In this document: positions 8,383 to 11,758 of the stretch, in pieces
Position numbering within the stretch: the stretch's first letter is position 1
Layout: each line of letters begins with the position of its first letter
From: Prochlorococcus marinus str. MIT 9211
Lineage (GTDB): Bacteria > Cyanobacteriota > Cyanobacteriia > PCC-6307 > Cyanobiaceae
Direction: 5' to 3'
Length of the DNA: 64,000 nucleotides
Assembly: GCF_000018585.1 (NCBI RefSeq)
Contig: NC_009976.1
Coordinates: 248,001-312,000 of the forward strand
Made by a program: the position numbers and the translations under genes
Notes under the pieces: model-generated
What the model was told of the DNA's origin: nothing
What the model saw: the letters and a program-made list of their open reading frames with translations, nothing else
Databases searched by the model: none

Positions 8383-8949
8383 ATGGCAGATAATTCTTCA
8401 TTAATTGCCCTCAGCAAACTACAAAAAATTCTTTTGATGCTGGTGGCTTTTGTACTATCTGCAGCACTTTTGATCATGAAGATTAGTGTTGCTTCAGTGC
8501 AGCCACTCGAGCAACTGGCTCGTAGTTCGCTGTTGCCAGAAATAGCTTTAGCCAATGGTAAACCAACTATTTTCGAGTTCTATGCAGATTGGTGTGAAGT
8601 ATGTCAAAAAATGTCCCCCTCAATAGTCGACTTAGAAAAAAGGATGGGGGATAAACTTGATATTGTTTTATTGAATGTAGATAATCAGAGGTGGTCTCCC
8701 CTGATTGATAAATATAATGTTAATGGAATACCTCAATTCATTTTCTTTAATCAAGATGGGGATCTTAAGGGAATTTCCATTGGCCTATTAAGCTCTGAAA
8801 AAATAATTAAGGCATCAGAGTATCTTATAGACAATAAAGAGCTAACTGATATTGAAGAGTTCAATAATATGTCTCCAGATAGATTTAAATTCACAGATTT
8901 GATTGATACCTCTAAGTCCAGGCCTGTTAATCCTAGAAGCCATAGTTAA
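8383..8949 (+). CDS. txlA: Membrane-anchored thioredoxin-like protein (TxlA/HCF164 type)
   Basis: A 188-residue protein with one N-terminal membrane helix (about 15-37) and a thioredoxin domain containing the redox motif WCEVC (Cys71 and Cys74) and the cis-proline loop NGIPQF. This matches TxlA of cyanobacteria and HCF164 of plastids. Those proteins face the thylakoid lumen and reduce disulfides, for example during cytochrome c or b6f maturation. The domain sequence FEFYADWCEVC is strongly typical. The C-terminal 45 residues beyond the thioredoxin core are polar. It converges on thyX with only three bases between the stops. Confidence 0.88.
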   Translation: MADNSSLIALSKLQKILLMLVAFVLSAALLIMKISVASVQPLEQLARSSLLPEIALANGKPTIFEFYADWCEVCQKMSPSIVDLEKRMGDKLDIVLLNVDNQRWSPLIDKYNVNGIPQFIFFNQDGDLKGISIGLLSSEKIIKASEYLIDNKELTDIEEFNNMSPDRFKFTDLIDTSKSRPVNPRSHS

Positions 8950-8952
8950 AAC

Positions 8953-9585
8953 TTACCAATCAAGAGCCTTTGCGACTATAGGGAATTGTTGAGAGAAAAT
9001 TGTTTTACAGGCATTTGCAATTTCCATATGTTCTTTTTGAGTGCCATAACCTGACCTTAAATTGATATAATGGATCCAGGATCTGCAAGAACCACTCATA
9101 TATATTCTTGTAGGAGTTGCAAGTGGTAAAATGAATCTTGCACACTCTTTTGCTATTCCAGATTCAAGCATTTCTTGATATAGGTTGAGAGAGTCTTCAA
9201 ACTGCTTCTTTATTTTTATCTTGAAACGGGCAGTTATTTCTTCGGGTAAGTCATGTATTGAATTTTGCCTATTTTTATTATCTTGTCTCCTTAATTCAGG
9301 GACAGGAATTTGACCTAGCTGGCTACTGTCTGCATACCTTTGGGAGAATTCTTGAAATGTAAAAGATCTATGGCGAAGAATTTGAGCAGCTATGCCTCTA
9401 TTTGTTTCAATTTGAATAGTCATAAATGCTTGTTCAAAGACACTCCAATGTTCATGCTTGATGCAATATCTTAAAAGCTTTGTAAAATCTTCATTGTCCT
9501 GGTTTTTGGGATTACTAACTCTGGCAATATATGCCATAGTTTTTTCAGCATCTGGAGTTGCTGTAACCAGATGAACACTATTCAT
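8953..9585 (-). CDS. thyX: Flavin-dependent thymidylate synthase
   Basis: ThyX methylates dUMP to dTMP using methylenetetrahydrofolate and FAD/NADPH. The signature RHR-x7-S is present as RHRSFTFQEFS (residues 71-81), with YAD following. At 210 residues it has normal ThyX length, and there is no similarity to ThyA. It follows dcd after two bases, so the cobO-like, dcd and thyX genes read as one operon. dCTP deaminase feeds the dUMP pool that ThyX uses. The start is the ATG of MNSVHLVTATPDAE. Confidence 0.95.
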   Translation of the reverse strand: MNSVHLVTATPDAEKTMAYIARVSNPKNQDNEDFTKLLRYCIKHEHWSVFEQAFMTIQIETNRGIAAQILRHRSFTFQEFSQRYADSSQLGQIPVPELRRQDNKNRQNSIHDLPEEITARFKIKIKKQFEDSLNLYQEMLESGIAKECARFILPLATPTRIYMSGSCRSWIHYINLRSGYGTQKEHMEIANACKTIFSQQFPIVAKALDW

Positions 9586-9587
9586 TG

Positions 9588-10181
9588 TTATATCTTTGCA
9601 AGAGTTACTTTCTCAGGTTGATTTTGATATTTACCCTTGCGGTCACTATAGGTTGTTTCACAAGGGTCTCCTTCTAGGAAGAGGAGTTGGCATATACCTT
9701 CATTAGCATATATTCGACAATCTGCTCCAGAACTATTGCTGAACTCCAGAGTCAGATGTCCTTCCCAGCTTGCTTCTGCTGGGGTTGTATTAACTATTAT
9801 GCCAAGCCGTGCATAAGTGCTTTTACCAAGACAAACAACAGTAATGTTTGCAGGGACTTTCATTCTCTCTAATGCGACTCCTAGGCCATATGAATGTGCA
9901 GGGAGGATGAAGTAATCTCCGTCGTCATCTTTATGGAGAGGGGTTGATTCTAAGTTATCTGGATTAAATCTTTTGGGATTCATTACTGTCCCAGGTACAT
10001 GACGAAAGATTAGGAATTCTTTAGAGGACAATCGAAGATCATAGCCATAAGACGAGCAGCCAAAACTTAAGACAGGATTTTGTTTTGAAGCAGGATTAAG
10101 GTGCCTAATCAGAGTGCTTTGGAAAGGTTTAAGCATTCCTTCTTTTGCTTTCTGACTAATCCAGCGATCGTTTTTAAGCAT
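9588..10181 (-). CDS. dcd: dCTP deaminase
   Basis: Dcd deaminates dCTP to dUTP, the precursor of dUMP. The 197-residue sequence shows the family's nucleotide-binding segments: LGKSTYARLGI (a loop used in triphosphate binding) and TPAEASWEGHLTLEFSN, which includes the catalytic Glu region. The N-terminal SFGCSSYGYDLRL is also typical of Dcd. Its ATG overlaps the stop of the upstream cobO-like gene by one base (TAATG), indicating coupled translation. thyX follows after two bases. I cannot say from sequence whether it is mono- or bifunctional with dUTPase. Confidence 0.94.
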   Translation of the reverse strand: MLKNDRWISQKAKEGMLKPFQSTLIRHLNPASKQNPVLSFGCSSYGYDLRLSSKEFLIFRHVPGTVMNPKRFNPDNLESTPLHKDDDGDYFILPAHSYGLGVALERMKVPANITVVCLGKSTYARLGIIVNTTPAEASWEGHLTLEFSNSSGADCRIYANEGICQLLFLEGDPCETTYSDRKGKYQNQPEKVTLAKI

Positions 10182-10819
10182 TATTTAGAGCACCTTAGTT
10201 CAGTAACTTGGTCTGCCATTGCTACAACTTCCTTTGGTATGAAAGGACCTGTAAGAATTACATCTATAGCGCGAGGTCGCTGTTCAAGTGTTTCGATGAG
10301 GTCTGTTTCTTGAACAAAACCTAATTTAATTGCAAGTCCTACCTCGTCTAAAACAAGTTTATGAATATTTTCCTTTAGTAAGTTTTGCTGACAGATTTGC
10401 CAAATTGCCTGCACGGCTTGTTTTGCCTGAATAAATTGGCTGGATAAATGGTCTGCAATGCTTTGTTCATTGCCAAGATAGCAGGGTAAATCAGGCCTGA
10501 TCCAATGAAGCCTTCCACAGAGTTGAATCCCTTTGGAAGGGCCTTGATCAACGCCTCCTTTTAGTAATTGAGCTATTAGGACTTCGCTGCCAAGTCCAGC
10601 TGATCGGAGAGCTTCGCTGAGAACAACAGGAAAACTACCTCCAAAATTAGCCATATGAACTTGCAGTTGTCCTTGAGGTTCGACAATACGAAGAATTGGC
10701 TTTGGATTTTCAAAAGGAATAGACCTTAAATTGCTATCCTTTTCCGGCGCATTTTTATTTATGTAGCTTGGGCTGGCAGTCAAAAAACTAAAATAACTAT
10801 GTTTCAAATCTAGCGGCAT
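10181..10819 (-). CDS. CobO/BtuR-family protein lacking the Walker A motif
   Basis: The 212-residue protein aligns by eye with cob(I)alamin adenosyltransferase of the CobO/BtuR type. It has EALRSAGLGSEVLIAQLLKG, matching the family's ALRAxGxGxxVxxxQFxKG, then LVLDEVGLAIKLG, RPRAIDVILTG and ADQVTEL. However, the segment that should be the P-loop (GxGKTT) reads MANFGGSFPVV, with no Lys-Ser/Thr. ATP binding in the usual way therefore looks impossible. The N-terminal ~45 residues are variable. It is coupled to dcd by a one-base overlap. Either it is a structural or regulatory paralogue or the enzyme has been repurposed. The fold call is fairly secure; the activity is not. Confidence 0.75.
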   Translation of the reverse strand: MPLDLKHSYFSFLTASPSYINKNAPEKDSNLRSIPFENPKPILRIVEPQGQLQVHMANFGGSFPVVLSEALRSAGLGSEVLIAQLLKGGVDQGPSKGIQLCGRLHWIRPDLPCYLGNEQSIADHLSSQFIQAKQAVQAIWQICQQNLLKENIHKLVLDEVGLAIKLGFVQETDLIETLEQRPRAIDVILTGPFIPKEVVAMADQVTELRCSK

Positions 10820-11023: not shown

Positions 11024-11758
11024 ATGGCAACTGCTGCTAGTGGCTTTAGCCGTTACTCAAATCAATCTTTAGGGGGACAGTCTCCTAACCAGGGTAATGA
11101 TCCAAATCAACCTAAGAAGACTCTCCTTGAGGTAATTCGAGGTCTTGATGGGGCAACCTCCGAGTTGGTTGAGCGCTCTAAAACAATCTTTTTCCCTGGC
11201 GATCCTGCCGAGAGAGTGTATTTAATTAGAAGAGGAGCTGTTCGTTTGACCAGGGTTTATGAGTCAGGAGAAGAGATAACGGTTGCTTTGTTAAGAGAAA
11301 ACAGTTTGTTTGGAGTCCTTTCCCTTTTAACTGGGCACAGATCTGATCGTTTTTACCATGCTTTGGCATTTACTCGTGTCGAGATGGTATCTGCCCCTGC
11401 AGGCTCTGTAAGAAATGCGATTGAAGCAGATAGTGGCGTAGGACTTCTTTTGTTGCAAGGCTTGTCAAGCAGGATTTTGCAAACAGAGACCATGATTGAA
11501 ACCTTGACCCATAGAGACATGTCTTCTCGACTAGTTAGCTTTCTTTTAGTGCTTTGTAGAGATTTTGGAGTACCAGGTGATAGAGGAATTACTATTGACC
11601 TTCGCCTTTCTCATCAGGCCATAGCGGAAGCCATAGGATCGACTCGTGTAACAATTACTCGTCTACTAGGTGATTTGAGAGGGTTAGGCTTACTACAGAT
11701 TGATAGAAAAAAAATCACGGTATTTGATCCAATAGCCCTTGCTAAACGTTTTAACTAA
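11024..11758 (+). CDS. ntcA: Global nitrogen regulator NtcA
   Basis: NtcA is a CRP-family activator that binds 2-oxoglutarate and switches on ammonium transport and nitrogen assimilation genes when nitrogen is scarce. The cyclic-nucleotide-like beta roll spans about residues 45-150 ([20 protein letters not shown] is typical). The C-terminal winged helix includes [19 protein letters not shown], with the recognition helix at about 206-217 very close to NtcA of other cyanobacteria. At 244 residues it carries the usual picocyanobacterial N-terminal extension. The start is ATG. Its likely target amt1 lies in this window with a perfect NtcA box. Confidence 0.97.

Follow-up and report, generated by a model that had tools for sequence, protein, structure and literature searches.

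ATP:corrinoid adenosyltransferases of the CobA/CobO/BtuR type (PF02572; PDB 1g5r, 1g64 and 4hut) are among the closest described relatives of the protein considered here. An adenosyltransferase can also act beyond synthesis: the human enzyme, ATR, can hand adenosylcobalamin (AdoCbl) to a client enzyme (PMC8633584). In cyanobacteria the CobO type further includes a tandem protein with two CobO domains (PRK07413). A gene called cobO and one for a class II ribonucleotide reductase (RNR) both occur in the cyanophage P-SS2, and the authors assign no definite role to these genes (PMC2784084). In Prochlorococcus MED4, the AdoCbl-dependent class II RNR, NrdJ, showed the largest change over the day among the proteins measured (PMC3430701).

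The window analysed here, a stretch of 64,000 nucleotides from Prochlorococcus marinus MIT 9211, carries a CobO-like gene that resembles this family in fold, in homology (profile E 3.4e-25) and in a VLDE motif, but differs from it in having no Walker A motif (P-loop), no FTW motif on the corrinoid side and no C-terminal tail, and in reading TGP, TGT or TGS in place of TGR. The features of the locus are as follows.

8953..9585, minus strand: thyX (flavin-dependent thymidylate synthase), which comes third in the run
9588..10181, minus strand: dcd, encoding dCTP deaminase; one base is shared between its start and the stop of the CobO-like gene
10181..10819, minus strand: CobO-like protein of 212 aa in the PRK07414 group, lacking a P-loop; open reading frame with ATG start, PF02572, CobA fold
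10244..10252, minus strand: TGP where active CobO has TGR, residues 190-192 (alignments)
10343..10354, minus strand: Walker B-like VLDE, kept, residues 156-159; E159 is invariant in 62 aligned proteins
10628..10651, minus strand: Walker A-aligned site, ANFGGSFP for GHGKGKTT, residues 57-64 (alignment to the genome's own canonical CobO)
11024..11758, plus strand: ntcA, divergent neighbour, conserved as a neighbour in picocyanobacteria only

The stop codon of the CobO-like gene and the start codon of dcd have one base in common within TAATG at 10179-10183, dcd and thyX are spaced by 2 bases, and ntcA lies upstream of the CobO-like gene on the opposite strand. In alignment with the canonical CobO, the arginine of TGR is gone from the window protein along with FTW and the tail, and KGG (within QFLKGG), VLDE and the ALR arginine are retained. 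The original prediction described a CobO-family protein that has lost Walker A, keeps the fold-defining segments, is coupled to dcd and adjoins thyX. It is borne out on each point by ANFGGSFP at the site, by KGG and VLDE, by the one-base overlap and by the position of thyX next after dcd.

Distribution against ribonucleotide reductase class

The gene was followed through two draws of genomes, 291 of the class and 234 of one order, the second partly overlapping the first. It was scored present where a match to the PRK07414 model had E < 1e-25, a threshold chosen because CobO-type paralogues mostly match no more strongly than about 1e-22; paralogue matches reach 1e-28 in two genomes of Prochlorococcus, both of which possess the gene in any case. 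In the first draw, both the gene and the tandem CobO were absent from 12 nearly complete genomes with a class I small subunit and without class II, as well as from G388 (77% complete); three genomes with both RNR classes retain the gene. In the second draw it was absent from 110 of the 113 class I genomes, and the three that keep it also possess class II. It was present in 114 of the 121 genomes without class I, the remaining seven lacking it. Fisher's test for gene against RNR class gives p = 2e-53, a value that assumes independence among the genomes, although they are related. When 40 class I genomes without the gene were searched again for the RTPR type of class II, 39 had none and one (G470) had both classes; in five class I families this re-test covered a few genera only, so the absence of class II applies to the genomes re-tested rather than to every class I genome. 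A restriction of the association to RTPR-type enzymes was rejected, as genomes with the other type, NrdJ_Z, carry the gene too. The link of the CobO-like gene to class II RNR is well supported, and the connection to a B12-dependent class II RNR that was originally proposed is real as a statistical connection, evident from the distribution of the gene.

Relatedness was considered on a quickly built rpoB tree (76 genomes), many of whose forks are weak; the long-branched window genome is clearly misplaced in it, and a genome discussed below (G250) was scored as lacking class II. This tree calls for at least 10 changes in the class II trait and 11 in the gene. Supported branches alone leave 6 independent contrasts, with the gene changing in the same direction in 4.6 of them on average and in the opposite direction in none (median two-sided p 0.06). 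The gene is missing in several independent class I-only lineages. Class II without the gene is found in one genus (g138 of family f35, five genomes), in two Gloeobacterales-like genomes, in G470 and in five draft genomes, and the gene without detected class II only in seven fragmented or partial assemblies. This pattern of exceptions gives the rule that the gene implies class II, with the reverse true in most lineages; genus g138, the Gloeobacterales-like genomes and G470 indicate that the gene is not strictly required where class II is present.

Two cases deserve separate mention. In the genus of G470 (g128, family f34), G470 has gained class I beside its RTPR and is without the gene, and its relatives, such as G233, have class II only and keep the gene; it is possible that G470 represents an intermediate stage. 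G250 (family f32; 3.8 Mb in one contig, rated 99% complete) has no RNR by the RTPR, NrdJ_Z and class I small-subunit models, and it lacks the CobO-like gene and retains the tandem CobO.

The same genomes bear on the possibility that the protein is a general factor of corrinoid metabolism, acting in late B12 synthesis or salvage and lost with the arrival of class I because less B12 is needed. The CobO ancestry is in keeping with such a role, and the need for B12 does fall: among the 110 class I genomes from which the gene is absent, 12 have no CobO-type match at all. However, the other 98 retain at least one CobO-type match and yet lack this gene, and in 8 of 8 class I genomes checked the match is an intact canonical CobO with GKT, FTW and TGR; the operon, too, is composed of deoxynucleotide genes. 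A tie to B12 biosynthesis as such is therefore disfavoured, and we regard a general corrinoid role as unlikely. Class I-only genomes are also without the tandem CobO and usually keep the canonical one, which points to a link with the use of AdoCbl rather than with the synthesis of B12.

Operon, family and active site

In every picocyanobacterial locus fetched, dcd lies directly downstream of the CobO-like gene, and ntcA is usually upstream; thyX follows dcd in most Prochlorococcus-like loci. In other families dcd is downstream on the same strand and within 1.5 kb in 33 of 58 loci, a few of which are cut short by contig ends. Eight genomes, mostly chosen because dcd does not adjoin the gene, have no common neighbour theme, their neighbours including an SSB gene (one locus), ABC transporters and PEP carboxylase. 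The gene for NrdJ is not adjacent in the loci examined. Control by NtcA through GTA-N8-TAC was rejected, with zero such sites between the CobO-like gene and ntcA and six in the whole window, no more than chance; promoter and terminator scans likewise gave nothing above chance. In two genomes of one family (f13), the neighbouring Dcd shares only about 45% identity with the Dcd usual in cyanobacteria, yet its gene still adjoins the CobO-like gene. These genomes carry NrdJ_Z instead of RTPR, so that both enzymes have been replaced and the neighbourhood kept. A thioredoxin-like gene facing thyX (8383-8949 of the window) is found near the operon in most picocyanobacterial loci, and it is possible that it has a role in NrdJ reduction.

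The window protein matches PF02572 (CobA_CobO_BtuR) above the Pfam cut-off (E 2.9e-21). Among NCBIfam models it fits NF005648/PRK07414 best, a model named 'P-loop NTPase family protein', at 144.7 bits, the cut-off of 248 not being reached; low scores against this model are general among picocyanobacterial members. A control genome, that of Synechococcus elongatus, has a PRK07414 match above the cut-off and carries RTPR. The window protein forms a clade with PRK07414 members that pass the cut-off (bootstrap/SH-aLRT 100/100), apart from CobO and the tandem CobO. A tree of 42 domains, in which long branches were flagged and the branching order of the groups was not used, places the P-loop-less proteins, canonical CobO and the two tandem halves in four separate groups. 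Essentially every one of the family's 121 genomes has an orthologue. The P-loop-less family is old, occurs in nearly all crown cyanobacteria and is not peculiar to MIT 9211.

Whether the motif is lost clade-wide, a point raised with the original prediction, is answered by the orthologues: GK[S/T] occurs in none of 107 distinct sequences across cyanobacteria, taken from numerous families as well as from picocyanobacteria. Members outside Prochlorococcaceae have a sequence like TSSHRNFFT at the site, and those of picocyanobacteria one like TAPYRGSFS. Purifying selection on the gene is strong, with dN/dS of 0.008-0.24 in nine close orthologue pairs, and a sequencing error or local decay is ruled out by these values, well below 1, together with the absence of the motif throughout. 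Residues G50, G77, Q84, G89, G93, W106, R108, W140, G191, P195, A202 and T206, in addition to E159, are invariant in the 62 aligned proteins. Identity to the nearest relatives is about 65% for the CobO-like protein versus about 90% for Dcd and NtcA, a faster change than that of its neighbours which would suit a non-catalytic protein.

An AlphaFold2 model built from 62 orthologues has a mean pLDDT of 87.6, with residues 1-40 poorly defined. Its best match among solved structures is Salmonella CobA (4hut; Z 19.4, rmsd 2.8, 151 residues), and the model predicts that the CobA/CobO fold is retained. RecA and thymidine kinase chains match it at Z near 12, well below CobA. These lower matches, the retained Walker B-like VLDE and ALR arginine, and the shared operon with dcd and thyX would all suit a nucleotide sensor, in which the CobO fold, though lacking a P-loop, binds a (deoxy)nucleoside triphosphate and controls Dcd or NrdJ. 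Against this, the phosphate-binding loop is absent in every member examined, and the arginine at position 60, a possible substitute for the loop that is conserved in 95% of the family, is a glycine in the window protein. Dcd is, moreover, widely present without such a CobO-like partner. We consider a sensor slightly less probable even than the general corrinoid factor. The new nucleotide-binding mode suggested at the outset also finds no support, since the other active-site signatures are missing too.

The MIT 9211 genome contains two further CobO-type genes, both intact. One is a canonical cobO, in which P-loop, FTW and TGR are all present; the other is a tandem CobO of 403 aa with a P-loop and TGR in each half. 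An intact adenosyltransferase elsewhere in the genome, which the original prediction had singled out for checking, is thus provided by the canonical cobO and by the tandem gene with its two P-loops, and the P-loop-less protein is a third, separate CobO-type protein. That it is still an active adenosyltransferase with an altered ATP site is very improbable: although VLDE, QFLKGG and the helix arginine survive, it has lost Walker A, FTW, the arginine of TGR and the C-terminal tail, and two intact CobO-type genes stand in the same genome.

Proposed role and comparison with known systems

With the phosphate site and further active-site signatures lost, synthesis of AdoCbl by this protein is unlikely. 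The reading that we prefer, and hold to be about evenly poised, is that it is a non-catalytic CobO/CobA paralogue serving the AdoCbl-dependent class II RNR of cyanobacteria, NrdJ. According to this model, the P-loop-less protein would act together with the tandem CobO and its two intact P-loops, and the pair would make, deliver or recharge AdoCbl on NrdJ. The P-loop-less partner would not be an enzyme but a subunit for docking or regulation, or else an escort of the corrinoid. RTPR-type reductases use triphosphates. Dcd (dCTP to dUTP) and ThyX would therefore act in the steps after NrdJ, which would explain the operon.

The distribution of the tandem CobO with class II RNR is nearly identical to that of the CobO-like gene. 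One may speculate, more tentatively and on balance doubtfully, that PRK07413 and PRK07414 form a dedicated cyanobacterial module for loading adenosyl-(pseudo)cobalamin onto class II RNR or maintaining it there, both being lost when class I takes over. Phage genomes bear on the tandem gene: the cobO of P-SS2 is of the tandem type (51% identical over 94%), and among phages only this copy and weak matches were found, with no copy of the P-loop-less gene. The P-SS2 pairing ties the tandem CobO to class II RNR, and not directly the P-loop-less protein. In the P-SS2 gene (GQ334450, 18803-19837) the N-terminal half has LDD and TGE for LDE and TGR, and judging from these residues it looks degenerate. 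What counts against a helper of NrdJ is that some class II genomes are without the gene, that nrdJ is not its neighbour in the loci examined, that the tree test allowing for relatedness gives no better than p 0.06, that P-SS2 has the tandem and not this gene, and that co-distribution cannot show contact.

To our knowledge, no loading or reactivation factor is known for class II RNRs, and none appeared in the literature searches. Searches on PRK07413 and PRK07414, and on likely MED4 locus tags, found no papers. The tie that the P-loop-less protein shows with RNR class and with the tandem CobO seems new, being in no paper retrieved by the searches. Much of the photosynthetic biomass of the ocean relies on class II RNRs for its DNA precursors. 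A conserved pseudoenzyme that is catalogued as a P-loop NTPase despite having no P-loop, and whose presence tracks RNR class, is a concrete candidate, testable in culturable cyanobacteria. We regard the CobO-like protein as a good candidate helper of the B12-dependent RNR, a testable candidate rather than a demonstrated mechanism.

Among known groups, PRK07414/NF005648 is close, being the best NCBIfam match, falling in one clade with the window protein and having the same dcd neighbourhood; the window protein differs from its members in scoring below the cut-off and in having lost the arginine found in 95% of them. The name of this group implies a P-loop, yet none of the members examined has one. 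The tandem CobO (PRK07413/NF005647) belongs to the same Pfam family and accompanies class II RNR in almost the same genomes, but consists of two domains, both of which have TGR and an intact P-loop, and forms a separate clade. The human ATR (MMAB) has a PduO-type fold, unrelated to that of CobA/CobO. As an adenosyltransferase that also escorts AdoCbl it offers a possible precedent, from which the cyanobacterial protein differs in that ATR is catalytically active and serves another client enzyme.
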